Shown: one piece after another, positions 27,986 through 60,853 of the stretch | How the letters are laid out: every line of letters begins with the position of its first letter | Numbering within the stretch: the first letter of the stretch is position 1 | Source: Haematococcus lacustris | Lineage: Eukaryota > Chlorophyta > Chlorophyceae > Chlamydomonadales > Haematococcaceae | DNA: 64,000 nucleotides | Assembly: GCA_030144725.1 (NCBI GenBank) | Contig: JASKMD010000015.1 | Span: forward strand, 8,777,384-8,841,383 | Direction: 5' to 3' | Translations under genes and position numbers: made by a program | The notes under the pieces: generated by a model | What the model saw: only the letters and a program-made list of their open reading frames with translations | Databases searched by the model: none | What the model was told of the DNA's origin: nothing

Positions 27986-28284
27986 TGTAAGGGCGCGCTC
28001 CGCGTAGTCCCTTAGTGTCGTCTGGGCTGTCGCGGTTAACCCGAGGCAGCTACAGGATATCGGTCACACCGCATTAGTGTGAGTTGGCAGGTAAAGCCTA
28101 GCAGCGTAAGCTGTGAGGACAACTGGTTCGATTCCAGGGGGCCCCGTTCTAAGCCCTAGCCTTCTCACGGTAATGCCTTGTGGCTGACCCTTTCAGTACC
28201 CGCACTTCGGTGCCCTCGCGGCCGGCTCAGTGTTACACATGGTTCAAACGGTCCAGCGTCGCCTTTATAAGGCTGCACGTTACA
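27986..28284 (+). repeat. family A LTR (first copy)
   Basis: 299 bp, TG...CA ends, preceded by the polypurine tract GGGGGGGAGGAA (27974-27985) and followed by a primer-binding site. It serves as 3' LTR of the left fragment and 5' LTR of the next element. It holds a tRNA-like core: outer stem 28076-28083/28164-28171, A-box-like TGGCAGGTAAAG (28085), B box GGTTCGATTCC (28125-28135), CGTTCTA loop (28145-28151). A TATA-like TTTATAAGG lies near 28264. Confidence 0.95.
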
Positions 28285-28286
28285 AG

Positions 28287-28298
28287 TGGTTTCCGACC
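28287..28298 (+). promoter_or_regulatory. primer-binding site of family A
   Basis: TGGTTTCCGACC lies 2 bp after the LTR end. The same 12 bases follow the 5' LTRs of families B and C, which marks it as the tRNA-primer site. It is not the initiator-Met type (TGGTATCAGAGC) common in plant elements. Confidence 0.85.
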
Positions 28299-28677
28299 GA
28301 TAAGCCAATTACTGTAAACACTCCGCCTCGACCATGTAAAAGATGGTTCGAAGTGTTTGCGTGACTTACACAGTCACTGTAGAGGATTAGGCTCGCGCTA
28401 AGCGCTCTTAAACAAAGCCTCGATACATACAAAACATCGAGCTCGCCAAAATGGGGCCGAGAATAAGGCATATCTGGAGACCCTCTATGAGCGGACCCGT
28501 GCATTGTAGGATGTGTCGACCTTGCAGGCGAGCGTGACAGTGGCGGAAAAGCTGGCGAACGGGACGTGCCTAGTGAGCAGCTCCGGCCGGCCTCCTGGCC
28601 CGCGAGGACCTCCTGGGCGCTATTCACGCAGAAGCTTGCCGCTGCTGAAGCCGTTGCTGCTGGGGTAAGTCGCGCTG

Positions 28678-29598
28678 ATGCTTTTGCTCTTGCGCCCCAG
28701 CCGGTCTCATCAGCCCTCCATGCAGGCAGAAATGCAGCCTTGCAATACTGTGGCTAGCATCTTCGACATGCAATGTTCCACTGCTCGTCGACCTGCTGCT
28801 AATGCTGGTGTACTCCAGTCTGCTTGCTTGCAGGAGGCTGGTCCCCAGCCTGCAGGTGGGTCTACAGGTCCGCATGCTTATGCTGCAGCCCTTATAGGTA
28901 GTGGCACCTTTGCTGCCCAGCCTGCTGCTCAGCCTGCTGCTCAGCCTGCTGCCCAGCCAGTTATGCACAGTGTTCCTGCTGTTGCACACCATTCTGCTGT
29001 TTTGCAGGAAGCTGGTCCCCAGCCTGCAGGTGGGTCTGCAGGTCCCCATGCTTATGCTGCAGCCCTTGAAGGTAATGGTACCTCTGCTGCCCAGCCTGCT
29101 GCCCAACCTGCTGTGCACAATGCTCCATGCACTACTGCTGCTGCTGCATCTGTTGCACGTGCTGCATACACTGCTGAACTAGCCACAGTGGCCCAGGGTG
29201 CTCCTGCCTCTGGCTGGACTCCCGTAGGACAGAGCCCTAGTAGGCCTGTCCCCAAGCCATCAGCATCTATTGCTGCAATCCGTTAGGAGTATGTTGGGCT
29301 AGCTGGTGGCTCTGCCCCACTCCCACCTGCTGCTGTGCCTCTGGCACCTGACACTGTGGTGCACTCCCACAGGGGCTTGCCCCCTGTTGAGCGTTGGTCT
29401 GATAACAGCCTTGCTCAGGGTAAACGTGCTGTCACCTTCCTTAAGGATCTGGAGGTGCACTGTGCTAACAATAACCTTGATCCTGCCCTTGCACTGTCAT
29501 CCTCATGTTCAAGTCCATCAGGTATTCAGATGCCTTGACACACATTGGGTATACCCCATGGGACTATCTTTGCAAGCACTTCATTGAGATGGTAGGGA
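28678..29598 (+). pseudogene. family A gag, decayed
   Basis: The Ala/Pro/Gln-rich N-part contains a partial duplication, with about 105 bp at 28828 repeated at 29002. The frame then meets TAG (29284-29286) where family C Gag continues. A capsid-like piece follows, LPPVERWSDN then FLKDLEVHC, with a TGA at 29536-29538 after a frameshift. Later capsid pieces (DALTHIGYTPWDY) are in another frame. No zinc knuckle is seen. The copy at 54982-55904 shows the same damage, so it predates duplication. Confidence 0.85.
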
Positions 29599-29987
29599 AG
29601 GACTGTGACTGACCTCAACCATGCTCATGGCCAGCTGTTGAACTCTAAGCTGCTGTGCATGTCTCTCAGTGTGACCCTGCAGGAGTACATTACAAACTTC
29701 AGCAATACCATCACTTTGTGTGAAACAGGGTGCATGAACATGGCATTGACTGTGGTCACTGTTTATAGGGGCTTCACCCCCCCAGCTGGCCCAGTGGCAA
29801 AGGACCTCATGTCCTTGGCACAACCCACTCTCGACTGCTGTGGCTTCAGCCATAGACAACCACTAGGTTCTGGGGTCACCCCATGCAAGTGTGGTGGTGT
29901 TAGTGTTGTGGCTGCTGTTCGTCCGCAGATCGCCGCCGTCTTGGCAGCCCTCACTCTCACTCCGGCCTGGTCACTCCGGCCGCGCCG

Positions 29988-30549: not shown

Positions 30550-31039
30550 CCCTATACATTACGGGAGAATAATTTATTGTTATTTTGTCGTAATTGTTGA
30601 TTTATACGGTTAAGTTGATCAGACTCGGACAATTACAGCAAGCACAGCAATTACAAGCAATGTCGGCCGGTAAAAGTTTTACTTGCTGGCGCTCTACAGC
30701 CCGCGAACCATGGAATTATAGTAACCCTAAATAAGCGGCAGCAGCTGCCAGAAGCTTCATCTTCAGAGCCTTGCCAGCTGCTTCGTGGGCGTGGAAGTCA
30801 TCTAGGCGTTGCGCTGCTTGCGGGTGATGCTGGGTGTCGCATAGGGGTTCAAAGGCCGCCATTACCCGTAGCCAGGAGGAGCAGCAACATGCTGCCCGCT
30901 TGCCTTGCCGACCAGTTGGGCAGACCCGGGCTGCCAAGGGTGGGCAGGGTGGCTGCTTGCAAGCTAGCAGCCAAGGGCACCGACGCCTGGCCAACTGCCA
31001 GGGACACCGCCGCCAGGCCAACTGCCAGGGACACCGCCG

Positions 31040-32256: not shown

Positions 32257-32350
32257 AGGAAAAGTGCACGACTTGCGCACATTTACTGAAAAAGTGCACG
32301 ACTTGCACACATTTACGGTAAAAGCGCAGACATTTACAACAAAAGTGCAC
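32257..32350. repeat. about three copies of a 30-bp tandem repeat
   Basis: AAAAGTGCACGACTTGC occurs at 32260 and 32290, each followed by a CACATTTAC-like segment. A diverged third copy follows (AAAAGCGCAGACATTTAC). Confidence 0.8.
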
Positions 32351-32624: not shown

Positions 32625-32831
32625 TGTAGCGAACGGCTCCTCGAAGCCTAGCTCGCCTCACGGTACTTCTGTACTGCAGTGTGACATGGTGGGCGAAAGG
32701 GGCAGGTGGGCCTTCGTGCACACCTGCTTCAGAGGTTCGACTCCTCGGGGGAAACGTTCTAAACCCTGGCCGTGTCACGCTGTGGGAAAGAGGTGGTTAT
32801 CGGTTATCGGCGCTGCTCTTAGCACGCTACA
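32625..32831 (+). repeat. family B 5' LTR
   Basis: 207 bp, TGTAGCG...GCTACA. tRNA-like core: outer stem AGTGTGAC/GTCACGCT (32678-32685/32774-32781), a middle stem GCAGGTG/CACCTGC, T-arm GAGG-TTCGACT-CCTC (32732-32746), then the CGTTCTA loop (32755-32761). Confidence 0.95.
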
Positions 32832-32834
32832 TTT

Positions 32835-32846
32835 TGGTTTCCGACC
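32835..32846 (+). promoter_or_regulatory. primer-binding site of family B
   Basis: TGGTTTCCGACC lies 3 bp after the LTR, the same 12-mer as in A and C. A second copy is at 38835-38846. Confidence 0.85.
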
Positions 32847-32881
32847 GACGTTGCTACTAACGCCACTTTCTCCCTGAGCAA

Positions 32882-34726
32882 ATGACTGCCAACAAGGAGC
32901 CTCCTCCTGGAGGAGACAAACGACCGGAGCGTTCTGCTCCTGGGGGCCAAACTCCTGGCTCCCCGCTCCCAGTGACTCCGAACGCCACCTCTGGTGCTCC
33001 AGCAGCGGTTCCTGCTGCGACTGGGGCGCCAAATACTGGCACGACGGTAACTATTACCACCCCCGCTCTTCCTGTGCCTATCACAAGCCCCGCCTTCGCG
33101 GAAATCGAGAGGGTTACTGGTCTACCGCCCGCTCAAGCTATGGATCTGCTGAAGAACGTGCTGCAGACTCTGAACGCTATGTCCTCCGCTCAGCCTTCGG
33201 CTGGCCCAGCACCTTCAGCTGTGGCGGCCCCTGGAGCTGCTCCGCTCTCTTATGCAGGAGCCCTGACAGCTGCCCCGATCTTGCCTGAAACTGGCACCTC
33301 TGCCGCAGCTGCTCAAGCTGATGAGATCCAAAGGCTGCGCCAGCAGCTGGTGGGGGCGAACGCAAATCTGCAGGCGTCCCAGAACGAGGCTGTCAGGGTC
33401 CGAGCCGAACTCGCTGAGATGGAGCGTCGGCAAGGCCTGGTTAACGCGACGGTAAGTGGTGAGCCTGCTGTAGCTGCAATTCGCAACCAGTATTCGCAGT
33501 CAGCTCGACCTGCTGTGAATGGTAGCAGCGGCATTTCTGCTGCTCTGGTGGCGCCTGTTGCACCTGCTTTGTCGGGCACTGCTACCCCTGTCGCACCTAC
33601 TGCGCCACCTGCAGCACCAGCAGGACATTTGCCTCTGTCTCAGGCTGCTATGCCTGTCACTGTGCCAGCCTCCCTGCCCAGGATAAAGGTTCCAGGTCCT
33701 GACAAGTGGACAGATCAGTGCCTAGCCACATCCAGGGTTGCAGAAATCTTCTGTGAAGACCTTGAGGTTCATTGTGCATATCTGCGCATTGATCCTGCTG
33801 ATGCATTGCCCAACTTCCTGTCTGGCAAGGCACGTGAGGTGTGGTATCCTGCTACTAGGAATGCACACATTCTTGCTCATGGCACTAGGCCAACCTGGGC
33901 CCACCTGCGTGCTTCTTTTAAGGAGATGGCTGGTGACGATCTGCGCAATGAATCAGACATGCACCGCAGGAAGCTGTTGGATCCTGGTGCCCTACGCATG
34001 TCAGCAGGTTCCACCCTTAACTCCTACATCACGGAGTTCCGTAACACTCTGACAGTGGCCGGTGCCACATGCATGGCACCCTCCATGCTTGTTGCCACTT
34101 TCATCAGGGGCCTCACCCCTGAACTGCAGTCTCGTGTAGTGCATGATCTTGCACTTATGCCTGACCCTAAGCTGACTGATGCCATTCAAGCTGCTGTGAA
34201 TGCACAGAAGGTTTTGTTTGCAGTGGCCACTAATCAAGTGGGCCGCCGCCCACCTGCACCTGTGGCTGCCTTCGTGCCACGTAAGCAGATGGACCGCATC
34301 AAAGGCTTCACCGCCCCTGCTGGAGGATGTCCTCCTGCGGCCCCTCGTGGCCCCTACTGGGATGTCAGTAGCAGCAGCAGCAGTGGCCACCGTGGAAGTC
34401 GCCACAGCAGCCAGGGTGGTGGACGTCCTCCACGGCCCCCTCCCCATGCTGCCCCTGTGTCTGATGCCCCTCCCAGGCCACCTCCTGGCCACGCCTGCCA
34501 CCACTGCTGGAACCCCGCCCATTTCAGGGACTACTGCAACCTGAAGCATCTGTCAGCTGAGGAGGCCCGCCGGGTCTCTGGGTTCCCCCGTCCCTCCTCC
34601 CTGGGCCCTCCTTCTGGTCATGGTGCTGGGGACCGTCCTCCCCGGGGCCCAGGCAAGCGTGACCGCAGCCCCCCAGGCAAGGGTGGATGGAAGCAGCAGG
34701 GCAGCAAGGGTGACCGCCGCCGCTGA
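32882..34726 (+). CDS. gag: family B Gag
   Basis: 614 residues forming the nucleocapsid core of the element. The Pro/Ala-rich N-terminus is followed by a Leu-heptad coiled-coil-like stretch (about 140-185, IQRLRQQLVGANANLQ), a retrotransposon capsid domain (about 290-440, with FCEDLEVHC, LPNFLSGKAREVWY and LNSYITEFRNTL), and a CCHC zinc knuckle CHHCWNPAHFRDYC (539-552). The tail is Gly/Arg/Pro-rich and basic, as expected for RNA binding. It ends in TGA (34724-34726). The pol frame follows in the same register without another stop, so TGA readthrough would make Gag-Pol. The ATG at 32882 is 36 bp after the primer-binding site. Confidence 0.93.
   Translation: MTANKEPPPGGDKRPERSAPGGQTPGSPLPVTPNATSGAPAAVPAATGAPNTGTTVTITTPALPVPITSPAFAEIERVTGLPPAQAMDLLKNVLQTLNAMSSAQPSAGPAPSAVAAPGAAPLSYAGALTAAPILPETGTSAAAAQADEIQRLRQQLVGANANLQASQNEAVRVRAELAEMERRQGLVNATVSGEPAVAAIRNQYSQSARPAVNGSSGISAALVAPVAPALSGTATPVAPTAPPAAPAGHLPLSQAAMPVTVPASLPRIKVPGPDKWTDQCLATSRVAEIFCEDLEVHCAYLRIDPADALPNFLSGKAREVWYPATRNAHILAHGTRPTWAHLRASFKEMAGDDLRNESDMHRRKLLDPGALRMSAGSTLNSYITEFRNTLTVAGATCMAPSMLVATFIRGLTPELQSRVVHDLALMPDPKLTDAIQAAVNAQKVLFAVATNQVGRRPPAPVAAFVPRKQMDRIKGFTAPAGGCPPAAPRGPYWDVSSSSSSGHRGSRHSSQGGGRPPRPPPHAAPVSDAPPRPPPGHACHHCWNPAHFRDYCNLKHLSAEEARRVSGFPRPSSLGPPSGHGAGDRPPRGPGKRDRSPPGKGGWKQQGSKGDRRR
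34724..34726 (+). other. in-frame TGA between gag and pol of family B
   Basis: The reading frame on both sides is the same and no other stop separates the two ORFs. Context is CGC TGA TGT. It is a candidate readthrough site. Confidence 0.7.
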
Positions 34727-37700
34727 TGTGTTGCCCAACCAGCTGGCCAGGACTGTGTTGGTGCCTGCTGTCCAGTGCCCAGTAATCAGGTTGCTATGCC
34801 TGAGGGACGTGCAGCAGACGATGGTGTGTTACACTTCTCGTTTCCTGGTAGAGTGAATGGCTTCGCATGTACCATGCTGTTTGACAGTGGTGCAGCGGCC
34901 AGCTTCATTAATTGTGCTGCTGTTGAGCAGTATCAGCTTGCCAGTTATAAACTGAAGCAGCCCAAGGAATTCCTTGTGGCCAATGGGCAGCCTGTGCTTT
35001 GTACGCATGCATGCAGCGTCCAGTTGAATGTGCAGACCCTGAGCTGCAGGGTTGAGTTGCTGGTGATGCCAGAGATGTTCTCTGCCTTTGATGTGTTAAT
35101 GGGCAGTGACTGGTTACAGTCGAATGGTGTACTGCTAGACTACCTGGCACGTACTATTACAGTACAATTGGCAGCTGTGAAAACAGTGCTCAAGTGTGAG
35201 CCAGCAGCGCCCATTATGGCTCCTCATTGTGCCCATATCCTGGCCAAACATAGACAAGCTACTGTATCAGCAAAAGTGGCCTACAGGTGGCTAAGGAAAG
35301 GTGGCCAGTCTCTGGTTGCCCTCATCTCGTCTCAGCCCATCAACCCTACCCCAGCAAGTGTGCTGTCCGTACACCCTACCTCTACTCCAGCTAATTTGCT
35401 GTCCAATAACCCTGACCCTCGCTCCCACTCAACCACCTCACCCTCTTGCCCACTTATCCATCACCTAACCCCTGCTCCAGCTAATAAGCTGTCCTCTAAT
35501 CCTGACCCTCACTCTCACCCAACATCCTTACCTCCTACCCCCTCTATCAACTACCCTACCTCTATACCCCCTGCAGTTGCAGCTCAGATGACAGCGCTCA
35601 TATCTGAGTACGACGATGTCTTCGCACCATTTAATACCTTACCCCCTCAGCGTCCAGTGGGACACACCATCCCCCTCCAGCCTGGCTGTAAGCCACCAGC
35701 TTTGCCATCATATAAGATGAGCCAGCCAGAGCTTCTGGAGATGAAAAAACAGGTTGCAGCCTTCTTGGAGCAGGGCATCATTGAACCCTCCTCCTCTCCC
35801 TACGCTGCCCCTGTCCTCTTTGTCAAAAAGAAATCAGGTGAGTTAAGGATGTGTGTAGACTATCGTCAGCTGAATAAGATCACTCTTAGGGATCAATACC
35901 CACTACCTCGAGTGGATGACCTGTTTGACAGGTTGGCTGGGTGTACAGTGTTCTCGTCACTTGACCTGCAAGCTGGATATCACCAGATCAGGATACCTGA
36001 TGAGGATGTCCCTAAGACAGCCTTCAGGACACCCAGTGGCCTATATCAATTTAAAGTACTATGCTTTGGACTAACCAATGCACCAGCCACGTTTCAACGT
36101 GTGATGAACAATGCTTTTGCTGACGTCATTAATGACTGTGCCCTTGTGTACATAGATGATATCCTCATCATGTCCAAAGACGTACCAGAACACTTCACAC
36201 ATTTGAGGAGAGTTCTTGAATTATTACGTAAGCATCAGTTTAAAGCTAAATTATCCAAATGTGAGTTTCTTAAAACCGCACTCAAATTTCTGGGTCACAT
36301 TGTTAGTGATCAGGGCATTGCTGTTGACCCTGATAAAGTGAAGTCTATCACTTCCTGGCCTGTGCCACGCAACCTGACTGCCATGCAGCAGTTCCTAGGT
36401 GCTGCAAATTTTGTGCGCAAATTTGTACACAACTTTAGTGCTATTTCAGCACCCTTGACAGACCTAACTGGTAAAGCAGGTGCTGATTTCAATTGGCATA
36501 AGTGGCCTGATGATAGATTAAAGGCTTTCGATGCTCTTAAGCATGCTATTTCAAGAGTACCTTTACTCAAAATCCCAGATATAACCAAACCTTTTCAGGT
36601 TTACTGTGACGCCTCTTTGCAAGGCGTAGGAGCAGTACTCATGCAGGAGGGTCATCCTCTAGCTTATTTAAGCAAGAAGCTGATTCCAGCTGAAAAGAAC
36701 TATACCACTGGTGAACAAGAGTTACTTGCTATTATCACTGCATGTAAGGAGTGGCGCTGTTACCTGGAAGGTGTTCCCTTCACATTGTACACAGACCACA
36801 AACCCTTGGTAGCTTTAAAAACACAAAAGGTCTTGTCCAGACGCCAAACCAGATGGTTGGAGTTCCTCTCTCGGTATGATTTTACCATTGAGTATCTACC
36901 TGGTGATACTAACCCTGCTGACCCTCTGTCACGCATACCTGATGCTCCTGTCAGCAACCCTGTCATGGTTATGACCAGAGGCAGGAAGCGCCTTTTGGAG
37001 GGGGAGGAAGCTGGTGTGGCGCAGCCTGCTCAGCCTGCCATTCAGCAGCTGCAGCAGGAGCCACAGCCTCAGCTGGTTTTGGAACAGCCCCTACCCCCAC
37101 CTCCTTTACCTGTGCACCCTTTGCACGCTGTCAATATGACAGAGCAGCTGCTGGCAGCGTATGCAGCAGACGAGGACTTTGCCAGCACGGTGGATCAATA
37201 TGATCAGGATAAGCATGGCTTGTATCGCACCAAAGGCAAGAACCAGATAGTGGTTCCTAATTGCCAACAGCTCAAAGCCAGGATATTGGTGGAGATGCAT
37301 GATGCACAGTTTGCAGGCCATGTGGGGATCACCAAGACGCTGGAGCGTATCTCCAGGATATTCTGGTGGCCACGTATGAGATCTGAAGTACGTCACTATG
37401 TGAGTAACTGCGATGCATGCCAGCGCAACAAGTCTGTGAATACCAGACCGGGTGGATTGCTTACACCACTGGCCATACCCTATGACAGATGGGAGTCCAT
37501 GTCTATGGACTTGATCACTAAACTACCACCTGGTGATCATGGCTTTGATGCCATTGCTGTTTTTGTGGATAGGCTGTCTAAGATGGTACACTTTGTGCCC
37601 TGCCGTGAGTCTATGAATGCTGAGGGCTTTGCCCGTCTATTCATTGACAATGTGTTTAAACATCATGGAGTGCCCAGAGAAATAATCTCTGATAGGGGCT

Positions 37701-38551
37701 CTCACTTTACTAATCATTTCTGGGCGTCAGTTATGGCCATTCTTGGTGTAAAAGAATGTAAATCCAGCGCTTACCATCCTGAGTCTGATGGTCAAACAGA
37801 AAGGTATAATCGTACCCTGGAGGAAATGCTTCGTCATTACATATCCCCTGCCCAGTCTGACTGGCCCTTCTTCCTGTCACTAGCTGAGTTTGCTGTGAAT
37901 AACAGCTGGCAGGAATCCATCCAGTCCACTCCCTTCCTGGTCAACACTGGCCAGTCACCTTTGACGCCGGCTCTGCTGGAACTGCCAGGTGAGGTGTACT
38001 GTCCCTCTGCCAGGAAGCTATCTGAGTGGTGGCAGAGTAATGTCAAGCAGGCCCGCCATTTCATGGAGCAAGCTCAGCAGCGTCAGGCCTATCTGGCTAA
38101 CAAAGGACGCAGAGAGGTGGAGTTCAGCCCTGGACAGCTAGTGCTACTGAGCACCAAGAACCTCAGGCTGAAGCCAGGTAAGGCTAAGAAGCTGCTGCCT
38201 AGGTTCATTGGGCCTTTCAAGGTGCTGGAGCATGTGGGTCCTGTTGCTGTACGCCTAGACCTGCCTCCTGCCATGGCACGCATGCACCCTGTGTTCCATG
38301 TTGCTCTGCTGAGACCTTACACTAGTGAGCATCCTCACTTGCCTCCTCCTGTGGACTGGTTAGAGGAAGCACCTCTATATGAGGTTGAGAAGTTGCTCGC
38401 CCATCGTGGTGTCCGTGCTGGTAGAGCACGTGGCTACTTGGTCAAGTGGCTGGGTTATGATGACTCTTACAACACATGGGAGCCAAGGAATAACCTTGTG
38501 AACTGCCAAGAAGTGTTGACTGCATATAATGCAGTGCATGGTTTGTCTTAG
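34727..38551 (+). CDS. pol: family B Pol polyprotein with chromodomain
   Basis: Open from the codon after the Gag TGA in the same frame; the first ATG is at 34799. Domains in order: aspartic protease with LFDSGAAAS (Asp codon 34883), reverse transcriptase with YIDD (36149-36160), and RNase H with YCDASLQGVGAVLM (Asp 36608). Next come the integrase zinc region (about 37295-37430, CDACQRNK) and the DDE core (SMDLITKLP, ISDRGSHF, DGQTERYNRTLEEM; about 37500-37830). A GPF/chromo C-terminus ends with a chromodomain (YEVEKLL, YLVKWLGYDDSYNTWEP; about 38370-38545) that would direct integration to marked chromatin. No internal stops. Expression is probably by stop readthrough from gag. Confidence 0.95.
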   Translation, partial: CVAQPAGQDCVGACCPVPSNQVAMPEGRAADDGVLHFSFPGRVNGFACTMLFDSGAAASFINCAAVEQYQLASYKLKQPKEFLVANGQPVLCTHACSVQLNVQTLSCRVELLVMPEMFSAFDVLMGSDWLQSNGVLLDYLARTITVQLAAVKTVLKCEPAAPIMAPHCAHILAKHRQATVSAKVAYRWLRKGGQSLVALISSQPINPTPASVLSVHPTSTPANLLSNNPDPRSHSTTSPSCPLIHHLTPAPANKLSSNPDPHSHPTSLPPTPSINYPTSIPPAVAAQMTALISEYDDVFAPFNTLPPQRPVGHTIPLQPGCKPPALPSYKMSQPELLEMKKQVAAFLEQGIIEPSSSPYAAPVLFVKKKSGELRMCVDYRQLNKITLRDQYPLPRVDDLFDRLAGCTVFSSLDLQAGYHQIRIPDEDVPKTAFRTPSGLYQFKVLCFGLTNAPATFQRVMNNAFADVINDCALVYIDDILIMSKDVPEHFTHLRRVLELLRKHQFKAKLSKCEFLKTALKFLGHIVSDQGIAVDPDKVKSITSWPVPRNLTAMQQFLGAANFVRKFVHNFSAISAPLTDLTGKAGADFNWHKWPDDRLKAFDALKHAISRVPLLKIPDITKPFQVYCDASLQGVGAVLMQEGHPLAYLSKKLIPAEKNYTTGEQELLAIITACKEWRCYLEGVPFTLYTDHKPLVALKTQKVLSRRQTRWLEFLSRYDFTIEYLPGDTNPADPLSRIPDAPVSNPVMVMTRGRKRLLEGEEAGVAQPAQPAIQQLQQEPQPQLVLEQPLPPPPLPVHPLHAVNMTEQLLAAYAADEDFASTVDQYDQDKHGLYRTKGKNQIVVPNCQQLKARILVEMHDAQFAGHVGITKTLERISRIFWWPRMRSEVRHYVSNCDACQRNKSVNTRPGGLLTPLAIPYDRWESMSMDLITKLPPGDHGFDAIAVFVDRLSKMVHFVPCRESMNAEGFARLFIDNVFKHHGVPREIISDRGSHFTNHFWASVMAILGVKECKSSAYHPESDGQTERYNRTLEEMLRHYISPAQSDWPFFLSLAEFAVNNSWQESIQSTPFLVNTGQSPLTPALLELPGEVYCPSARKLSEWWQSNVKQARHFMEQAQQRQAYLANKGRREVEFSPGQLVLLSTKNLRLKPGKAKKLLPRFIGPFKVLEHVGPVAVRLDLPPAMARMHPVFHVALLRPYTSEHPHLPPPVDWLEEAPLYEVEKLLAHRGVRAGRARGYLVKWLGYDDSYNTWEPRNNLVNCQEVLTAYNAVHGLS

Positions 38552-38611
38552 CATCACTGCTACAGTGTTGCGAGTCCTTGTGTTCTCACGAGGGCGGAGC
38601 GTTTCCTCTTT

Positions 38612-38624
38612 GGAGGGGGAGGAA
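38612..38624 (+). promoter_or_regulatory. polypurine tract of family B
   Basis: GGAGGGGGAGGAA directly precedes the 3' LTR, the usual plus-strand priming site. Close relatives are found in A (27974-27985, 54278-54289, 59989-60000), C (50341-50353) and D. Confidence 0.9.
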
Positions 38625-38831
38625 TGTAGCGAACGGCTCCTCGAAGCCTAGCTCGCCTCACGGTACTTCTGTACTGCAGTGTGACATGGTGGGCGAAAGG
38701 GGCAGGTGGGCCTTCGTGCACACCTGCTTCAGAGGTTCGACTCCTCGGGGGAAACGTTCTAAACCCTGGCCGTGTCACGCTGTGGGAAAGAGGTGGTTAT
38801 CGGTTATCGGCGCTGCTCTTAGCACGCTACA
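38625..38831 (+). repeat. family B 3' LTR, shared with the next copy
   Basis: Same 207 bp as the 5' LTR at an offset of exactly 6000. It is followed by the primer-binding site of a second internal region, not by flanking DNA. Confidence 0.95.
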
Positions 38832-44371: not shown

Positions 44372-44671
44372 TGTAAAGTGCGCACCTCTGGAAGAGATTG
44401 CCGCTTCGCGTCGTCTGGGCTGTCTCGTGAATGCGAGCCGTCGCGGGACGCGGGTTACACGTGTAGTGTGAGATTTGGCAGGTTAAAGACTAGCGACATT
44501 GCGTTCGTGAGTACAACTGGTTCGATCCCAGGGAGCCCCGTTCTAAGCTCTAGCCATTCTCGCAACACACCGCTGTAACCCAACACCCTAGTCGGAAGTC
44601 ACCGCCTCGACTGGACCGGCCTTCGAGCTTGTGTCAAAAGGTCATCTGACGTTGCGTCCCCGCACGTTACA
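44372..44671 (+). repeat. family C 5' LTR
   Basis: 300 bp, TGTAAAG...GTTACA. tRNA-like core: A-box-like TGGCAGGTTAAAG (44476), T-arm CTGG-TTCGATC-CCAG (44517-44531), CGTTCTA loop (44539-44545), outer stem GTGAGA/TCTCGC. Confidence 0.95.
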
Positions 44672-50353: not shown

Positions 50354-50636
50354 TGTAAAGTGCGCACCTCTGGAAGAGATTGCCGCTTCGCGTCGTCTGG
50401 GCTGTCTCGTGAATGCGAGCCGTCGCGGGACGCGGGTTACACGTGTAGTGTGAGATTTGGCAGGTTAAAGACTAGCGACATTGCGTTCGTGAGTACAACT
50501 GGTTCGATCCCAGGGAGCCCCGTTCTAAGCTCTAGCCATTCTCGCAACACACCGCTGTAACCCAACACCCTAGTCGGAAGTCACCGCCTCGACTGGACCG
50601 GCCTTCGAGCTTGTGTCAAAAGGTCATCTGACGTTG
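50354..50636 (+). repeat. family C 3' LTR, last 17 bp lost in the gap
   Basis: It matches 44372-44654 without visible difference and is preceded by the polypurine tract at 50341-50353. The gap hides the LTR end and any target duplication. Confidence 0.93.
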
Positions 50637-51140: not shown

Positions 51141-54057
51141 ATACCGCCTCAGTAAACCTGAGCAAGAGGAGCTTAAGAGACAGATCCAGGACTACCTGGC
51201 CAAAGGTATGATTGAGCCCAGCTCCTCCCCCTATGTTGCACCCATCCTGTTTGTGCAGAAGAAGTCAGGTGAGCTACGTATGTGCATTGACTACCGTCAG
51301 CTCAACAAGCTCACGCTACGTGACCAATACCCTCTGCCCAGGATTGATGATCTGTTTGACAGGTTGTCAGGGTGTTCTGTCTTCTCCTCCCTGGACCTCC
51401 AAGCTGGTTATCACCAGATCAGGATCACTCTTGAGGACGTCCCCAAGACGGCCTTCAGGACCCCTGAAGGTCACTTCCAATTTAAGGTGCTGTCTTTTGG
51501 CCTGGCCAATGCCCCTGCCACCTTCCAGCGTGTCATGAATGATGCTTTTGCACCTGTCCTAGGCAAGTGTGCACTAGTGTATCTAGATGACATACTGGTC
51601 ATGTCTAAGTCTCTACCTGAGCACCTGCAGCACCTACGCCTTGTTTTTAACCTGCTGCGTAAAAACAAACTGTATGCCAAGATGTCCAAATGTGAGTTCA
51701 TGCAGCTCACCCTCAGGTTTCTTGGGCATGTGATCTCAGCTGGTGCCATCTCTGTGGACCCTGATAAGGTGAGGGCCATTGTTGACTGGCCTGTCCCTTA
51801 TTCCCTGACCCAGATGCAGTCCTTCCTGGGTGCTGCCAACTTTGTTCGCAAGTTTGTGCACAACTTCAGTGCCATCTCAGCACCCCTGACTGATCTGTGT
51901 GGCAAGCTCAGTGCCACATTCCCATGGCACTCCTGTCCTGACCATGAACGTCATGCCCTTTATGAGCTCAAAGCTGCTGTGGCTAACGTGCCTATGCTGC
52001 GCCTGCCAGATCACACCCAACCCTTCCAGGTGTACTGTGATGCCTCACTCCAAGGAGTAGGTGCAGTCCTGATGCAGGGTGGGTACCCCCTTGCCTATTT
52101 GAGCAAGAAGTTGTCCTCTGCTGAGGTCAACTACACCACAGGTGAGCAAGAGATGCTTGCTCTTGTCACCGCATGCAAAGAATGGCGTTGCTACCTTGAA
52201 GGTGTGCCATTCACTCTGTTCACCGACCATAAGCCTTTGATTTCACTGCCTACACAGAAGAATCTGTCTAGGCGTCAGGCTAGGTGGATGGAGCTGCTGT
52301 CTAGGTTTGACTTTAAGCTGGAGTACATCCCAGGTCCAGTCAACCCAGCAGATCCTTTATCCCGGTTAATCACTGGCCACCAGGAAGGTGCCACTGTGTG
52401 TGCAATGCTCACCAGACGGCAGGCCAAACTTTCCTGTGGGGGGGAGGGAGCTAGTGGTGCTCGAGCCCTTGAGGCCAATGCCCCTGCTGCCGTCACTGCG
52501 AAATCCTCCTTAACTCCAGAGATTACTGAAAATACTGCTGATACAAGCCATAACAGGGACCTCGTTCCCTTGGTCACCTGTACATCTGACACCTCAGTGC
52601 ACTATCCTGCGGCTCCTGCCCATCCTCTGGGTTTGTCTGATCAACTCATCCAAGGATACCGGCTTGACCCTGCGTTTAATGCTGAAGCTGATCTGTCCAG
52701 CATGTACCAGGACACACATGGCCTATGGCGGCTCACTGGTAAGGATAAGGTAGTGGTCCCCAATGACTCTGAGCTGCGCAACCACATCTTGCACGAGATG
52801 CATGATGCAGTCTATTCAGGTCATGTGGGTATCAGCAAAACCCTGGAACGTGTGTCACGTGTGTTTTGGTGGAACACAATGCGTGCTGACGTCAGGTACT
52901 ATGTGTCCACATGTGATGCCTGTCAACGTGACAAGGCGTCCTCTCTCAAGCCAGGTGGCCTACTCAACCCTCTGTCTATACCTGACTACCGCTGGGAGTC
53001 TGTGTCCATGGACTTCATTACCAAGCTACCTGCTGGATCACATGGGTATGATGCTATCTGTGTCTTTGTGGATAGGCTCAGCAAGATGGTCCACTTTGTG
53101 CCATGCCGTGAGGACCTTAAGGCACGCCGTTTTGCACAACTGTTCATTGACCATGTGTACAAACTGCATGGCATGCCTGCTGAGCTGATCTCTGACCGAG
53201 GCTCACTGTTCACAAGTGTGTTCTGGCGTGAGGTCATGAGGCGCTGTGGCTCTAAGCCTGCCCTCTCATCATCTTATCATCCACAGTCTGATGGCCAGAC
53301 AGAGAGGTACAACCGTGTGTTAGAAGAGATGCTCAGGCACTACATCTCACCTACTCAATCTGACTGGCCTGACTACTTAGCCTTGGCTGAGTTTGCTGTC
53401 AACAACTCGTGGCAGGAGTCCATCCAGTCCACCCCCTTCCTGGTCAACACAGGTCAGTCCCCTGTGACTGTTGGCCTACGTGATCTGCCTTATGGGGGCC
53501 GTTGTCCCTCTGCTCATGCCTTTACCCGCTGGTGGCAGGATGCTGTTGCCAATGCCAGGAAGTGCATGGCTGCAGCCCAATCCCGTCAGGCTGCCTATGC
53601 CAACAAGGCCAGGCGTGACGTTGAGTACAAGGTGGGCCAGAAGGTGTTGCTCAGCACCAAGCACCTCAAGCTTCAGCCTGGGAAGGCTCGTAAGCTCATA
53701 CCTAGGTATGTGGGTCCCTTTGAGATCCTGCTGCTGGTTGGTGCAGTAGCTGTCAAGCTAGACCTTCCTGCCAGCATGAGCCGTCTGCACCCTGTCTTCC
53801 ATGTGTCACTCATCAAGCCTTATACTGGCACTGATGTTGGCTTCATGCCACCTCCTGTGACCTGGATGGATGAGACCCCTGTGTACTATGTTGAGCGTTT
53901 GCTTGACCACAAGGGTGTCAAGGACAACAAAGCCAGTTACTACCTGGTGCAGTGGGAGGGTTATGATTCCACTCACAACACCTGGGAGCCCAGGTCCAAC
54001 CTGACTGACTGTGACAAGGTCTTGGCTGAATACAATGCTATCCATCATCTTAAGTAA
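51141..54057 (+). pseudogene. family A pol, right half of the interrupted copy
   Basis: It starts at the exact element position where the fragment at 29988-30549 stops. It is open throughout: RT N-part (KGMIEPSSSPYVAPILF), YLDD (51580), RNase H YCDASLQGVGAVLM, a linker, integrase and chromodomain as in the other A copies, with the natural stop at 54057. All catalytic residues of RT, RNase H and integrase are present. Only the protease and a working gag are absent from the family. As it stands it has no start, because the upstream part lies 20 kb away. Confidence 0.93.
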
Positions 54058-54289
54058 GTCTCCTGCATGCATGCTGCCGCGCTGCTGCACTGAGACACTC
54101 TCTTCTCTGTGCTTACAAAGCCTATGGTTATATGTTACAATTCCCCTATTACAGTTGGTCTCTGACCACACCCAGCTTTGACCTGGCTCTACCTTCATGG
54201 TATTCAGTAGCTAACCCAGTGAGACCTAGGTCTTGCGAGTCTCGGGTTTAACCTGAGGCGGAACGAGGCATCCCCTTGGGGGGGAGGAA

Positions 54290-54588
54290 TGTAAGGGCGC
54301 GCTCCGCGTAGTCCCTTAGTGTCGTCTGGGCTGTCGCGGTTAACCCGAGGCAGCTACAGGATATCGGTCACACCGCATTAGTGTGAGTTGGCAGGTAAAG
54401 CCTAGCAGCGTAAGCTGTGAGGACAACTGGTTCGATTCCAGGGGGCCCCGTTCTAAGCCCTAGCCTTCTCACGGTAATGCCTTGTGGCTGACCCTTTCAG
54501 TACCCGCACTTCGGTGCCCTCGCGGCCGGCTCAGTGTTACACATGGTTCAAACGGTCCAGCGTCGCCTTTATAAGGCTGCACGTTACA
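54290..54588 (+). repeat. family A LTR (second copy), shared by two elements
   Basis: 299 bp, same as 27986-28284. It is preceded by the polypurine tract at 54278-54289 and followed by the primer-binding site at 54591-54602. It is both the 3' LTR of the copy on the left and the 5' LTR of the copy on the right. Confidence 0.95.
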
Positions 54589-54981
54589 AGTGGTTTCCGA
54601 CCGATAAGCCAATTACTGTAAACACTCCGCCTCGACCATGTAAAAGATGGTTCGAAGTGTTTGCGTGACTTACACAGTCACTGTAGAGGATTAGGCTCGC
54701 GCTAAGCGCTCTTAAACAAAGCCTCGATACATACAAAACATCGAGCTCGCCAAAATGGGGCCGAGAATAAGGCATATCTGGAGACCCTCTATGAGCGGAC
54801 CCGTGCATTGTAGGATGTGTCGACCTTGCAGGCGAGCGTGACAGTGGCGGAAAAGCTGGCGAACGGGACGTGCCTAGTGAGCAGCTCCGGCCGGCCTCCT
54901 GGCCCGCGAGGACCTCCTGGGCGCTATTCACGCAGAAGCTTGCCGCTGCTGAAGCCGTTGCTGCTGGGGTAAGTCGCGCTG

Positions 54982-55902
54982 ATGCTTTTGCTCTTGCGCC
55001 CCAGCCGGTCTCATCAGCCCTCCATGCAGGCAGAAATGCAGCCTTGCAATACTGTGGCTAGCATCTTCGACATGCAATGTTCCACTGCTCGTCGACCTGC
55101 TGCTAATGCTGGTGTACTCCAGTCTGCTTGCTTGCAGGAGGCTGGTCCCCAGCCTGCAGGTGGGTCTACAGGTCCGCATGCTTATGCTGCAGCCCTTATA
55201 GGTAGTGGCACCTTTGCTGCCCAGCCTGCTGCTCAGCCTGCTGCTCAGCCTGCTGCCCAGCCAGTTATGCACAGTGTTCCTGCTGTTGCACACCATTCTG
55301 CTGTTTTGCAGGAAGCTGGTCCCCAGCCTGCAGGTGGGTCTGCAGGTCCCCATGCTTATGCTGCAGCCCTTGAAGGTAATGGTACCTCTGCTGCCCAGCC
55401 TGCTGCCCAACCTGCTGTGCACAATGCTCCATGCACTACTGCTGCTGCTGCATCTGTTGCACGTGCTGCATACACTGCTGAACTAGCCACAGTGGCCCAG
55501 GGTGCTCCTGCCTCTGGCTGGACTCCCGTAGGACAGAGCCCTAGTAGGCCTGTCCCCAAGCCATCAGCATCTATTGCTGCAATCCGTTAGGAGTATGTTG
55601 GGCTAGCTGGTGGCTCTGCCCCACTCCCACCTGCTGCTGTGCCTCTGGCACCTGACACTGTGGTGCACTCCCACAGGGGCTTGCCCCCTGTTGAGCGTTG
55701 GTCTGATAACAGCCTTGCTCAGGGTAAACGTGCTGTCACCTTCCTTAAGGATCTGGAGGTGCACTGTGCTAACAATAACCTTGATCCTGCCCTTGCACTG
55801 TCATCCTCATGTTCAAGTCCATCAGGTATTCAGATGCCTTGACACACATTGGGTATACCCCATGGGACTATCTTTGCAAGCACTTCATTGAGATGGTAGG
55901 GG
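54982..55902 (+). pseudogene. family A gag, decayed (full-length copy)
   Basis: Same reading as 28678-29598, including the TAG (55588-55590), the TGA after the frameshift (55840-55842) and the internal duplication. The copies differ at very few bases; one is G for A at 55901. Shared lesions mean they were inherited from a common defective parent. Confidence 0.85.
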
Positions 55903-56291
55903 AGGACTGTGACTGACCTCAACCATGCTCATGGCCAGCTGTTGAACTCTAAGCTGCTGTGCATGTCTCTCAGTGTGACCCTGCAGGAGTACATTACAAA
56001 CTTCAGCAATACCATCACTTTGTGTGAAACAGGGTGCATGAACATGGCATTGACTGTGGTCACTGTTTATAGGGGCTTCACCCCCCCAGCTGGCCCAGTG
56101 GCAAAGGACCTCATGTCCTTGGCACAACCCACTCTCGACTGCTGTGGCTTCAGCCATAGACAACCACTAGGTTCTGGGGTCACCCCATGCAAGTGTGGTG
56201 GTGTTAGTGTTGTGGCTGCTGTTCGTCCGCAGATCGCCGCCGTCTTGGCAGCCCTCACTCTCACTCCGGCCTGGTCACTCCGGCCGCGCCG

Positions 56292-59200
56292 GTGGCGCTG
56301 GTGCCCCCGCCACTCCCCGTGCCTACCCTGCAGCTCCCACGGCTCCGCCGTCTGCTGCCCCGCCTACCGCGGTATGATGTGTTTTTGGGTGATGACTGGC
56401 TGTTTGCCAACAAAGCCATCCTTTCTTATGAGGGTAAAACCCTTTCTCTTTCTGCTGCTGGCAAGACTGCTGTGACTCTGCCGTGTCCTGCTGTGGCAGC
56501 CCCTAAGTATGTTGGGCAATGTTCTGCTGTAAGACCAACCCCTGCATTCTTAATCAATGCTCTCAAAGCCAAGCCTGAGTTAATCTCAGCTTCCCAGGCG
56601 TCCAGGTGGCTCCTTAAAGGAGGCCGTGCTGTGGTTGCTTTAGTCATGGCTGAAGGCTCTGCCTCTGCCACTCCTGGTACACCCAGTGACCAAGACAACC
56701 AACACATACCTGCAGCTATTAAAGCTGAGCTACAAACCCTACTCGATGAGTACAATGATGTCTTTAAACCACTCACTGATACCCCTCCTGAACGTCCTGT
56801 GGGTCATACCATACCCCTGGTCCCTGACGCCCGTTCACCTGTGACCCCCATATACCGCCTCAGTAAACCTGAGCAAGAGGAGCTTAAGAGACAGATCCAG
56901 GACTACCTGGCCAAAGGTATGATTGAGCCCAGCTCCTCCCCCTATGTTGCACCCATCCTGTTTGTGCAGAAGAAGTCAGGTGAGCTACGTATGTGCATTG
57001 ACTACCGTCAGCTCAACAAGCTCACGCTACGTGACCAATACCCTCTGCCCAGGATTGATGATCTGTTTGACAGGTTGTCAGGGTGTTCTGTCTTCTCCTC
57101 CCTGGACCTCCAAGCTGGTTATCACCAGATCAGGATCACTCTTGAGGACGTCCCCAAGACGGCCTTCAGGACCCCTGAAGGTCACTTCCGATTTAAGGTG
57201 CTGTCTTTTGGCCTGACCAATGCCCCTGCCACCTTCCAGCGTGTCATGAATGATGCTTTTGCACCTGTCCTGGGCAAGTGTGCACTAGTGTATCTCGATG
57301 ACATACTGGTCATGTCTAAGTCTCTACCTGAGCACCTGCAGCACCTACGCCTTGTTTTTAACCTGCTGCGTAAAAACAAACTGTATGCCAAGATGTCCAA
57401 ATGTGAGTTCATGCAGCTCACCCTCAGGTTTCTTGGGCATGTGATCTCAGCTGGTGCCATCTCTGTGGACCCTGATAAGGTGAGGGCCATTGTTGACTGG
57501 CCTGTCCCTTATTCCCTGACCCAGATGCAGTCCTTCCTGGGTGCTGCCAACTTTGTTCGCAAGTTTGTGCACAACTTCAGTGCCATCTCAGCACCCCTGA
57601 CTGATCTGTGTGGCAAGCTCAGTGCCACATTCCCATGGCACTCCTGTCCTGACCATGAACGTCATGCCCTTTATGAGCTCAAAGCTGCTGTGGCTAACGT
57701 GCCTATGCTGCGCCTGCCAGATCACACCCAACCCTTCCAGGTGTACTGTGATGCCTCACTCCAAGGAGTAGGTGCAGTCCTGATGCAGGGTGGGTACCCC
57801 CTTGCCTATCTGAGCAAGAAGTTGTCCTCTGCTGAGGTCAACTACACCACAGGTGAGCAAGAGATGCTTGCTCTTGTCACCGCATGCAAAGAATGGCGTT
57901 GCTACCTTGAAGGTGTGCCATTCACTCTGTTCACCGACCATAAGCCTTTGATTTCACTGCCTACACAGAAGAATCTGTCTAGGCGTCAGGCTAGGTGGAT
58001 GGAGCTGCTGTCTAGGTTTGACTTTAAGCTGGAGTACATCCCAGGTCCAGTCAACCCAGCAGATCCTTTATCCCGGTTAATCACTGGCCACCAGGAAGGT
58101 GCCACTGTGTGTGCAATGCTCACCAGACGGCAGGCCAAACTTTCCTGTGGGGGGGAGGGAGCTAGTGGTGCTCGAGCCCTTGAGGCCAATGCCCCTGCTG
58201 CCGTCACTGCGAAATCCTCCTTAACTCCAGAGATTACTGAAAATACTGCTGATACAAGCCATAACAGGGACCTCGTTCCCTTGGTCACCTGTACATCTGA
58301 CACCTCAGTGCACTATCCTGCGGCTCCTGCCCATCCTCTGGGTTTGTCTGATCAACTCATCCAAGGATACCGGCTTGACCCTGCGTTTAATGCTGAAGCT
58401 GATCTGTCCAGCATGTACCAGGACACACATGGCCTATGGCGGCTCACTGGTAAGGATAAGGTAGTGGTCCCCAATGACTCTGAGCTGCGCAACCACATCT
58501 TGCACGAGATGCATGATGCAGTCTATTCAGGTCATGTGGGTATCAGCAAAACCCTGGAACGTGTGTCACGTGTGTTTTGGTGGAACACAATGCGTGCTGA
58601 CGTCAGGTACTATGTGTCCACATGTGATGCCTGTCAACGTGACAAGGCGTCCTCTCTCAAGCCAGGTGGCCTACTCAACCCTCTGTCTATACCTGACTAC
58701 CGCTAGGAGTCTGTGTCCATGGACTTCATTACCAAGCTACCTGCTGGATCACATGGGTATGATGCTATCTGTGTCTTTGTGGACAGGCTCAGCAAGATGG
58801 TCCACTTTGTGCCATGCCGTGAGGACCTTAAGGCACGCCGTTTTGCACAACTGTTCATTGACCATGTGTACAAACTGCATGGCATGCCTGCTGAGCTGAT
58901 CTCTGACCGGGGCTCACTGTTCACAAGTGTGTTCTGGCGTGAGGTCATGAGGCGCTGTGGCTCTAAGCCTGCCCTCTCATCATCTTATCATCCACAGTCT
59001 GATGGCCAGACAGAGAGGTACAACCGTGTGTTAGAAGAGATGCTCAGGCACTACATCTCACCTACTCAATCTGACTGGCCTGACTACTTAGCCTTGGCTG
59101 AGTTTGCTGTCAACAACTCGTGGCAGGAGTCCATCCAGTCCACCCCCTTCCTGGTCAACACAGGTCAGTCCCCTGTGACTGTTGGCCTACGTGATCGGCC

Positions 59201-59768
59201 TTATGGGGGCCGTTGTCCCTCTGCTCATGCCTTTACCCGCTGGTGGCAGGATGCTGTTGCCAATGCCAGGAAGTGCATGGCTGCAGCCCAATCCCGTCAG
59301 GCTGCCTATGCCAACAAGGCTAGGCGTGACGTTGAGTACAAGGTGGGCCAGAAGGTGTTGCTCAGCACCAAGCACCTCAAGCTTCAGCCTGGGAAGGCTC
59401 GTAAGCTCATACCTAGGTATGTGGGTCCCTTTGAGATCCTGCTGCTGGTTGGTGCAGTAGCTGTCAAGCTAGACCTTCCTGCCAGCATGAGCCGTCTGCA
59501 CCCTGTCTTCCATGTGTCACTCATCAAGCCTTATACTGGCACTGATGTTGGCTTCATGCCACCTCCTGTGACCTGGATGGATGAGACCCCTGTGTACTAT
59601 GTTGAGCGTTTGCTTGACCACAAGGGTGTCAAGGACAACAAAGCCAGTTACTACCTGGTGCAGTGGGAGGGTTATGATTCCACTCACAACACCTGGGAGC
59701 CCAGGTCCAACCTGACTGACTGTGACAAGGTCTTGGCTGAATACAATGCTATCCATCATCTTAAGTAA
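56292..59768 (+). pseudogene. pol: family A pol, broken by one nonsense codon
   Basis: The frame runs from a Pro-rich stretch joined to YDVFLGDDWL (no DTGA protease motif). It goes through RT (YLDD at 57291), RNase H and the integrase zinc region to PDYR, then TAG at 58704-58706 where the other two copies have TGG (Trp). It is open again to 59768: integrase core (SMDFITKLPAG, ISDRGSLF, DGQTERYNRVLEEM) and chromodomain (YYLVQWEGYDSTHNTWEP). The TAG is a single G-to-A change private to this copy, so it is recent. Confidence 0.93.
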
Positions 59769-60000
59769 GTCTCCTGCATGCATGCTGCCGCGCTGCTGCA
59801 CTGAGACACTCTCTTCTCTGTGCTTACAAAGCCTATGGTTATATGTTACAATTCCCCTATTACAGTTGGTCTCTGACCACACCCAGCTTTGACCTGGCTC
59901 TACCTTCATGGTATTCAGTAGCTAACCCAGTGAGACCTAGGTCTTGCGAGTCTCGGGTTTAACCTGAGGCGGAACGAGGCATCCCCTTGGGGGGGAGGAA

Positions 60001-60299
60001 TGTAAGGGCGCGCTCCGCGTAGTCCCTTAGTGTCGTCTGGGCTGTCGCGGTTAACCCGAGGCAGCTACAGGATATCGGTCACACCGCATTAGTGTGAGTT
60101 GGCAGGTAAAGCCTAGCAGCGTAAGCTGTGAGGACAACTGGTTCGATTCCAGGGGGCCCCGTTCTAAGCCCTAGCCTTCTCACGGTAATGCCTTGTGGCT
60201 GACCCTTTCAGTACCCGCACTTCGGTGCCCTCGCGGCCGGCTCAGTGTTACACATGGTTCAAACGGTCCAGCGTCGCCTTTATAAGGCTGCACGTTACA
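60001..60299 (+). repeat. family A 3' LTR (third copy)
   Basis: 299 bp ending GTTACA, preceded by the polypurine tract (59989-60000). B box GGTTCGATTCC at 60140-60150. Confidence 0.95.
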
Positions 60300-60682
60300 A
60301 CATCCTCTGCGGTGGCCATGGGGGACCGGCGCAACAGTGTCTGCATCTGCAGACGCTGAGCGGCGCGTGGTGCCCCCAACTCCATGTTCGCAGTCAATGT
60401 GCGCTCGTCGCGACGCACTGATGTTGCTGCGGGGCTTGAAGGTCACAGGGTGCTTCACACACACACAGCCCAGCCCCCGGGTCAATGGGGGACAGCTGAG
60501 CTAAGTCCCCTCCTTGTGAGCTCGCTGCCTTCCTTGTGCCTTGCTCACGCTGTTTCTCGTCCTGAGCCCCAGGTCCAGTCACCCCCTGACCATGGACAGC
60601 AGCCTTACAGCAGCGATGTAGCGTTCAGGAAGAGCGCGCCTTAAATCTTTTCAACGTGTGAGCGCCATGCAACGCTAGAAGC
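60300..60682. other. no gene seen
   Basis: Spacer between the family A 3' LTR and the family D 3' LTR. ORFs of 62-101 codons show no motif. A short CA run lies near 60458-60468. Confidence 0.5.
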
Positions 60683-60853
60683 TGTTACATGTGTCAGACT
60701 GTCTCAGCGTAACCAGGCCAGGACATAGAACGGCCCCCGGGGATCGAACCCGAATGGTGGGCAGGCAATACAGCCCACCATTTAACCTGCCTGTATCACA
60801 CTTCGTCAGTGACACTAGCGGCCGACTGCTAAATGCAGAATCGGAACGCTACA
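60683..60853 (-). repeat. family D 3' LTR
   Basis: 171 bp reading TGTAGCG...TGTAACA on the minus strand, preceded by the polypurine tract GGAGAGGGAGGAA (60854-60866). tRNA-like core: long stem AATGGTGGGC/GCCCACCATT, T-arm CGGG-TTCGATC-CCCG (60738-60752), CGTTCTA loop (60726-60732). Confidence 0.9.

Follow-up and report, generated by a model that had tools for sequence, protein, structure and literature searches.

The nearest published case to the elements described here is Helenus (TRIMp3; Kojima 2024), which comprises non-autonomous elements of 311-1263 bp in fungi, animals and plants (PMC10886601). Here we describe a partly tRNA-like RNA core that lies inside the long terminal repeats (LTRs) of several families of Ty3 retroelements in the green alga Haematococcus lacustris, and that was found in a 64,000-nucleotide stretch of its genome (contig JASKMD010000015.1, positions 8,777,384 to 8,841,383), henceforth the window.

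Helenus resembles the algal elements in having B-box letters in both LTRs, within a sequence that is tRNA-related (in the algal core, as far as the T-arm only), together with a primer-binding site (PBS) and a polypurine tract. It differs in three respects: its tRNA part keeps boxes A and B, whereas the algal core has the B letters and an A box at chance level; it is non-autonomous, whereas the algal elements encode pol (open reading frames of 1258 and 1235 aa); and it lacks the extra conserved hairpin that the algal core carries between T-arm and outer stem. The author of the Helenus study argued that autonomous partners have to rely on RNA polymerase II, which makes it unlikely that they have extended LTR stretches in common with Helenus. 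The same paper states that Pol III (RNA polymerase III) transcription has been reported for Cassandra (PMC10886601). Cassandra likewise has a small-RNA-like stretch inside the LTRs of an LTR element; however, it is non-autonomous and its stretch is 5S rRNA, to which the whole window has no match in Rfam (E≤10). HIV-1, too, is reported to have a tRNA-mimicking RNA structure near the PBS of a retroelement. That structure reportedly mimics the anticodon arm for LysRS; the putative algal mimic resembles a T-arm instead, and forms part of a larger four-way junction encoded by the LTR. Yeast Ty3 is, like the algal elements, a Ty3 element primed by initiator tRNA-Met, and in yeast the U3 RNA contacts the primer (PMC5371799, PMC11381356); the algal LTRs differ from this bipartite PBS in having no consistent complementarity to the primer. 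Other cis elements are reported in the yeast Ty3 RNA map (PMC11381356). No report of the structure described below was found in the open-licence full-text literature, a scope that does not include subscription papers.

The folded core and the case for selection

Read in the sense of the element from 5′ to 3′, the core consists of a stem (P1), a short single-stranded linker, three hairpins (P2, P3 and P4) and the return strand of P1. The linker is of the AGGTTAAA type and contains GG; P2 is variable; P3 is a T-arm with the loop consensus TTCRAYY; and P4, directly 3′ of the T-arm, has CGTTCTA or a variant of it in its loop. The original prediction had placed such a core in the LTRs of four families (A, B, C and D), and all eight copies lie where it had put them, with the stems, T-loops and CGTTCTA loops it described, including the changing T-arm stems CTGG/CCAG, GAGG/CCTC and CGGG/CCCG (Table 1). 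A covariance model built from eight aligned variants, four of them (A, B, C and D) from the window, returned these eight copies, which scored 67-92 bits, and had no other hit in the window up to E=10; because A, B, C and D helped to train the model, this search is a check of location only and not independent proof.

Minimum free energy (MFE) folds of A, B, C and D, computed separately and free of any alignment, have a common layout of outer stem plus three hairpins. The T-arm is reproduced exactly in A, C and D, whereas B forms a hairpin of only three pairs, out of register, where the T-arm should be. The exact T-arm is present in the MFE fold of eight out of ten variants, and in all ten the sense RNA has a lower free energy than the antisense RNA, if barely so in F.

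Pairing was examined in a MAFFT alignment of eight variants that had not been fitted to the structure. Here 77.6% of the cells pair, compared with 67.7% after shuffling and 37-49% (maximum 48.8%) with the 3′ strands slid by 1-3 columns, and both sides change in 12 of 29 pairs. For four of five measures the observed value was reached by none of 500 shuffles; for the fifth, further pair types, it was reached by 169. A model-aligned set of 29 distinct rows, an alignment that leans towards the structure, gives the same picture: 82.4% pairing, 21 of 28 pairs changing on both sides, and shuffles that reach the observed value only on the fifth measure (45 of 500). The aligned rows hold 105 G-U pairs against 19 A-C mismatches, a comparison in which the fit to the model favours G-U.

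Swapping 3′ strands between families lowers the pairing. Each of the six families A to F was represented by a single sequence, segmented by hand (the variants A2, C2, D2 and E′ being left out); P4 was cut to four pairs in E and F, P2 to the length of its shorter strand, and F was omitted for P2. The native arrangement was equalled by 4 of 720 permutations for P1, 12 for P3 and 2 for P4, by 1 of 720 for these three stems jointly, and by 2 of 120 for P2 (five families). Covariation is thus above that of the shuffled, slid and strand-swapped controls.

The fold appears to be larger than the original prediction supposed. Whole-LTR folds contain a second helix, P0, that extends P1 outward in A (GGTCA/TGACC), C (GGGTTACA/TGTAACCC), E (CCACACT/AGTGTGG) and F (ACCAG/CTGGT), and duplex folding of the flanks yields it in D as well (GTGTCA/TGACAC). 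Across eight variants the native flank duplexes average -22.5 kcal/mol and the swapped ones -16.2, although in 11 of 56 cases a swapped duplex equals the native mean or lies below it; in the six families, 4 of 720 P0 permutations equal the native one. P0, too, looks to be kept by compensating change, and a large part of the LTR RNA may form a single extended rod capped by the three hairpins. For P0 the evidence is less secure than for P1, P3 and P4.

A number of results weigh against a maintained fold of this kind. In E the MFE fold lacks the T-arm (inner pair probability 0.19), and in B the MFE fold has it displaced (0.55). Measured as z-scores against shuffles (sense -1.2 to -3.8), the sense strand leads the antisense in only six of ten variants. 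In whole-LTR folds, where P1 of A and P2 of C are excluded because the helix finder took the wrong strand, the mean pair probability of P3 is 0.99 in A, 0.55 in B, 0.89 in C, 0.77 in D, 0.27 in E and 0.78 in F, and that of P4 is 0.92, 0.40, 0.43, 0.44, 0.03 and 0.90, respectively; the whole-LTR MFE fold of D swaps the outer stem for other pairings (mean probability of P1, 0.64). Some foreign partners beat the native P0 strands of B, D and E. Finally, under a tree-based null that re-places inferred substitutions (using the 29 distinct sequences among 87 aligned rows, and 92 of their 154 columns), 12 of 28 pairs fall at p<0.05 but only one is significant after correction, and pairs of the structure supply only 7 of the 30 best-scoring column pairs. 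The alignment used there is fitted to the model, and its set is small and dominated by few families. The concern attached to the original prediction, that significant covariation might vanish once more families were aligned, is in this sense half answered.

A different account of the same pattern is that a single recent tRNA or short interspersed element (SINE) insertion was copied between LTRs, or that the core reflects shared descent without selection. In its favour, the core is homologous from family to family, and the elements that carry it are all Ty3 chromoviruses related to one another. The LTRs are less dissimilar outside the core than first described: most alignments between families are limited to the core, but those of A with C and of D with E extend well past it and that of A with D does so in part, so that A, B, C and D are not fully independent families. 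Nevertheless the surrounding LTR sequence has mostly diverged, family F (below) is about 50% identical in protein, and the stems vary between families while their pairing is kept. Such divergence with preserved pairing contradicts a single recent insertion, and we consider this account very unlikely. Selection at the RNA level is well supported. Since the paired letters vary and their pairing persists, its most likely target, as far as sequence comparison can indicate, is the folded sense RNA encoded within the LTRs.

Further families and the primer

The motif pair TTCGANNCN{6,20}CGTTCTA matches the 308-Mb genome 1,991 times (997 and 994 on the two strands), against 128 (63 and 65) for the reversed pattern, a number well in excess of chance. 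A motif-independent sample was drawn from integrase zinc-finger matches (20 of 150 listed, 150 having been scored of 2,212 candidates), hand-picked for spread over scores and contigs, and about 4 kb downstream of each was taken. In 15 of the 20 a core was found on the correct strand approximately 1.4 kb downstream, ten scoring 68.8-71.7 bits and five only 15.5-18.7 bits. Two others (L314 and L324) have a strong core that belongs to another, nested or neighbouring element. The covariance model found no core in the ∼4 kb downstream of the remaining three (L315, L325 and L316): a simple motif search returned no LTR start in the first two, and in L316 the LTR stops after ∼40 bases, short of the core.

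The five weak cores constitute family F, whose proteins are 48-50% identical to those of A, B and C from integrase to chromodomain. Its LTR has GTGTGG...CCACAC, a five-pair T-arm CCGGG/CCCGG with the loop TTCGACT, a P2 shrunk to about three or four pairs and, in most copies read, a seven-pair P4 (AGATCTC or AGACCTC with GAGGTCT). P1, the T-arm and this differing P4 are thus kept at the matching position of the LTR. Further variants include E (AGTGACTGAG/CTCAGTTGCT), E′ (AGTGACTGGG/CCCAGTTGCT, T-loop TTCAACT), D2 (P4 GAGGC/GTCTT, against GGGGC/GTCCT in D) and B2 (loop TGTCCTA). In the families read the letters GG-TTCRA-NNCC are preserved throughout, save in the A2 variant L029 (GCTTCGA). The proposal that several Ty3 families have the core in common is upheld: judged from these sequences, it reaches more families than A-D, one of them deeply diverged.

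Outside this genome, protein relatives occur at about 45-51% identity on short contigs. Scanning viral contigs for the motif pair gave at least 120 stretches, 100 of which were searched with the covariance model, with none above 19.7 bits; two protein-guided scans of viral contigs found no relative, and a scan of them for the PBS gave 35 stretches. The motif pair also gave 118 stretches on prokaryote contigs; among the matches listed all are prokaryotic records, and we take them as chance.

The PBS reads TGGTTTCCGACC in A, A2, B, B2, C, C2 and E, and in D2 begins TGGTTTCCG before diverging. TGGTTTCCGACC has 1,328 matches in the genome, compared with 116 for the reversed control. On contig C1, within the part that both match lists cover in full, GGTTCGANYCC lies 77-152 nt upstream, on the same strand, of 20 of the 29 PBS sites. 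The other nine have none: five of these have an integrase match ∼4-5 kb away on the same strand and would fit E′ elements, whose T-loop the pattern misses; four are left over by that explanation. The distances from T-arm to PBS fall into classes of 77, 92, 110, 124, 132, 145 and 152 nt, and since those of 77 and 110 match no family read, further core-bearing families probably exist.

A pattern for the 5′ end of the primer led to its genes (24 matches against 157 in the control, 16 of the 24 identical). There are 16 such genes, TTCCGAC...GTCGGAA; of six read at full length, five are identical. The anticodon is CAT, the anticodon stem GGG/CCC and the T-loop ATCGAAA, all of them features of initiator tRNA-Met. 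The primer end GGTCGGAA, followed by an inferred A and by CCA, pairs with all 12 bases of the PBS, and the primer is identified as initiator tRNA-Met. The genes (contigs C83, C90, C166 and C176) have T1-A72 ends; eukaryotic initiator tRNAs usually have A1-U72. Other possibilities were tried and rejected. A search for an elongator tRNA as primer returned first 0 matches and later 6, fewer than the 21 of its control, and not one of the 6 resembled a tRNA; the core is no copy of the primer, the T-arms of the two being different; and a test for self-priming from the LTR found no common complement to the PBS across eight LTRs.

On another reading, the core serves as a 3′ primer-binding segment of the yeast Ty3 type, its hairpin pairing with the T-arm of the primer and so circularising the RNA. 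The primer is the one used by yeast Ty3, whose U3 joins primer binding (PMC5371799), and TTCGATC, the loop of C and D, complements GATCGAA of the primer T-arm. Yet TTCGACT (B, E and F) and TTCAACT (E′) break this pairing while suiting a T-loop. In five of the six families (A, B, D, E and F) the LTRs complement the primer no better than expected by chance, 52-95% of shuffles equalling the longest complement; in C the longest complement is at a different place. Such a role is highly improbable. At position 217 of the C-family LTR (∼44588 in the window), CTAGTCGGAA is complementary over 10 nt to the 5′ end (bases 1 to 10) of initiator tRNA-Met, a length reached by 3% of shuffles; none was found in A, B, D, E or F.

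The elements of the window and their neighbours

The core-bearing elements are assigned to the Ty3 chromoviruses because their predicted proteins include reverse transcriptase (RT), RNase H and integrase with a C-terminal chromodomain. The proteins of element C match H. lacustris records, with identities reaching 100%. RT and RNase H precede integrase, and a PBS and a polypurine tract are present; the purine tract 5′ of the LTRs is of the GGGGGAGGAA or GGGGGGGAA type. The LTRs measured are 193-300 bp long, begin with TGTA or TGTG and terminate in ACA.

Table 1. Cores, LTRs, primer-binding site and pol reading frames in the window
Feature	Position	Strand	Details
Core A, copy 1	28076-28171	+	P1 28076-28083/28164-28171; P2 28097-28118; T-arm 28123-28137
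P4 hairpin of core A, copy 1	28138-28157	+	loop CCCGTTCTAA
Core A, copy 2	54380-54475	+	inside LTR 54290-54588
Core A, copy 3	60091-60186	+	
Core B, copy 1	32678-32781	+	T-arm GAGG/CCTC; P4 loop GAAACGTTCTAAA
Core B, copy 2	38678-38781	+	inside LTR 38625-38831
Core C, copy 1	44465-44566	+	inside LTR 44372-44671; T-arm CTGG/CCAG; P4 GGAGC/GCTCT
Core C, copy 2	50447-50548	+	
Core D	60706-60802	-	P1 AGTGTGAT/GTTACGCT; T-arm 60752-60738, CGGG/CCCG
P4 of core D	60737-60720	-	loop CGTTCTAT; stem GGGGC/GTCCT
LTR of family A	54290-54588	+	5′ TGTAAGG, 3′ CGTTACA; PBS next
LTR of B, copy 2	38625-38831	+	207 bp
LTR of C, copy 1	44372-44671	+	
LTR of family D	60617-60853	-	237 bp; preceded by purine tract GGGAGGAA
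PBS of A	54591-54602	+	TGGTTTCCGACC; complements 3′ end of initiator tRNA-Met; identical letters in B and C
Pol frame of element B	34775-38551	+	protease, RT, RNase H, integrase, chromodomain; 1258 aa
Pol frame of element C	46395-50102	+	protease, RT, RNase H, integrase, chromodomain; 1235 aa
Pol frame of an A element	51208-54057	+	spans RT to chromodomain

The A (51141-60300) and B (32625-40224) elements are arranged head-to-tail, with repeats that are 99.7-99.9% identical, as from recombination or insertion into a sibling. Beside the Ty3 cluster lies a Ty1/copia-type element on the minus strand (21206-24319; gag, integrase and the start of RT), in which the covariance-model search of the window gives no core. 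Also on the minus strand, 2761-21123 is a single open frame of 6,120 aa, mostly a 114-bp (38-aa) tandem repeat across 16.8 kb: by arithmetic some 148 units, with shifted self-alignments 86-98% identical. A second tandem repeat (25324-26165, period ∼55 bp) is open in several frames, and a near-perfect inverted repeat built of TGACTC units lies at 43245-43315; the top Rfam match of the latter, mir-378, scores 30 bits against a cut-off of 80 and is likely chance.

Candidate roles of the core

The likeness to tRNA put forward in the original prediction holds in part only, for one T-arm and a four-way junction. The canonical layout is broken by hairpin P4 between T-arm and outer stem; ARAGORN found no tRNA in the window, and neither did the Rfam scan that covered 5S rRNA. 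Rfam scans of single cores gave tRNA-clan matches of 5.1 bits for A (tmRNA), none for B and 11.8 bits for D (tRNA-Sec), at an E-value of about 7.

One of the two main rivals to the reading we favour is an internal (type 2) Pol III promoter, with the T-arm as its B box and the LTR transcribed by Pol III, a mode proposed for Helenus and reported for Cassandra. The B-box letters noted in the original prediction are present and are conserved in every family read save the one A2 variant, but their positions are those of the T-loop plus the innermost two pairs of its stem. The LTRs are short, with Helenus LTRs as a published parallel (PMC10886601). The A-box-like sequence said to lie upstream did not hold up: the closest match to TRGCNNARYNGG agrees at 7 of 9 positions in all seven variants compared, a score that 32-50% of shuffles also reach. 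Runs of TTTT 3′ of the T-loop are absent from seven LTRs examined, B having one just beyond the LTR. Among three A2 LTRs, however, L017 and L314 have two each after the core (L002 has none), which could terminate a short RNA and raises this rival slightly. In three elements T-runs occur at the expected number and are not depleted, so RNAs of ∼6 kb would end early. P1, P2, P4 and P0, moreover, covary, which a promoter does not need. The case for a Pol III promoter is weak, and we regard it as unlikely.

The same letters might act in DNA, as a TFIIIC/B-box site serving as insulator or insertion guide, with the RNA fold a by-product. They are among the most conserved of the core, and yeast Ty3 is reported to target Pol III genes. 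Set against this are the compensating changes beyond the B box and the lower free energy of the sense strand in all ten variants; there is little chance that this is the explanation.

The other main rival is an RNA processing signal that sets an RNA end, whether as a fold at which RNase P or tRNase Z cuts or as a novel ribozyme that cleaves itself. Several conserved unpaired stretches surround the four-way junction, and retrozymes are reported to carry hammerhead ribozymes (PMC4918200). But in the whole window and in single cores A, B and D no known RNA family in Rfam matches above chance, and the outer stem does not adjoin the T-arm, unlike that of tRNA. We hold this to be quite unlikely.

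Two more ideas were also discarded. A poly(A)-signal argument, built on a TGTAA that A2, C, D2 and E have downstream of the core, was dropped because the same stretch in C is also one strand of P0, and a search for pairing of CGTTCTA with TAGAACG of its own element found none in A, B or C.

The reading we favour, to which we give an even chance, is that the core is a cis-acting RNA domain in the genomic RNA of the element that acts via a tRNA-elbow-like T-arm. In tRNA the elbow is built by the T-loop meeting a GG stretch. By analogy, the T-loop and the nearby GG linker of the core would probably build a similar corner; together with the P4 loop, these conserved unpaired parts look like tertiary contacts or a protein site. 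The corner could be bound by a putative tRNA-binding host factor or by Gag, and binding may help to select the RNA of the element and to deliver initiator tRNA-Met to the PBS, which in the 5′ LTR would lie at the distance from the T-arm given above. This mode of action is modelled on the PBS-adjacent tRNA-like element of HIV-1. A mimic of the elbow in packaging or primer delivery is our first choice because the core is close to the PBS. A difficulty for it is that the domain might sit only in the 3′ untranslated region, with the 5′ copy outside the RNA.

More tentatively, and with distinctly less confidence, a T-loop four-way-junction RNA tipping a long LTR stem could be a general, possibly ancient cis domain of green-algal chromoviruses, one that mimics the tRNA elbow to recruit the tRNA machinery of the host for primer delivery or for packaging of full-length RNA. 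If so, it would be a retroelement counterpart of viral tRNA-like structures, and would occur in coding elements, which have been thought unlikely to share such LTRs with Pol III-driven relatives.

The RNA structures that package and prime LTR elements are defined in few systems (yeast Ty1 and Ty3, and retroviruses). Here divergent families within one genome amount to natural compensatory mutations, which opens structure and function to direct tests; the alga can be cultured, and the motif pair occurs some two thousand times in its genome. The core would also caution annotators that many B-box matches in this genome are LTRs and not tRNA genes, and would add, beyond short parasites such as Helenus, a case of coding elements with a tRNA-like part in their LTRs.

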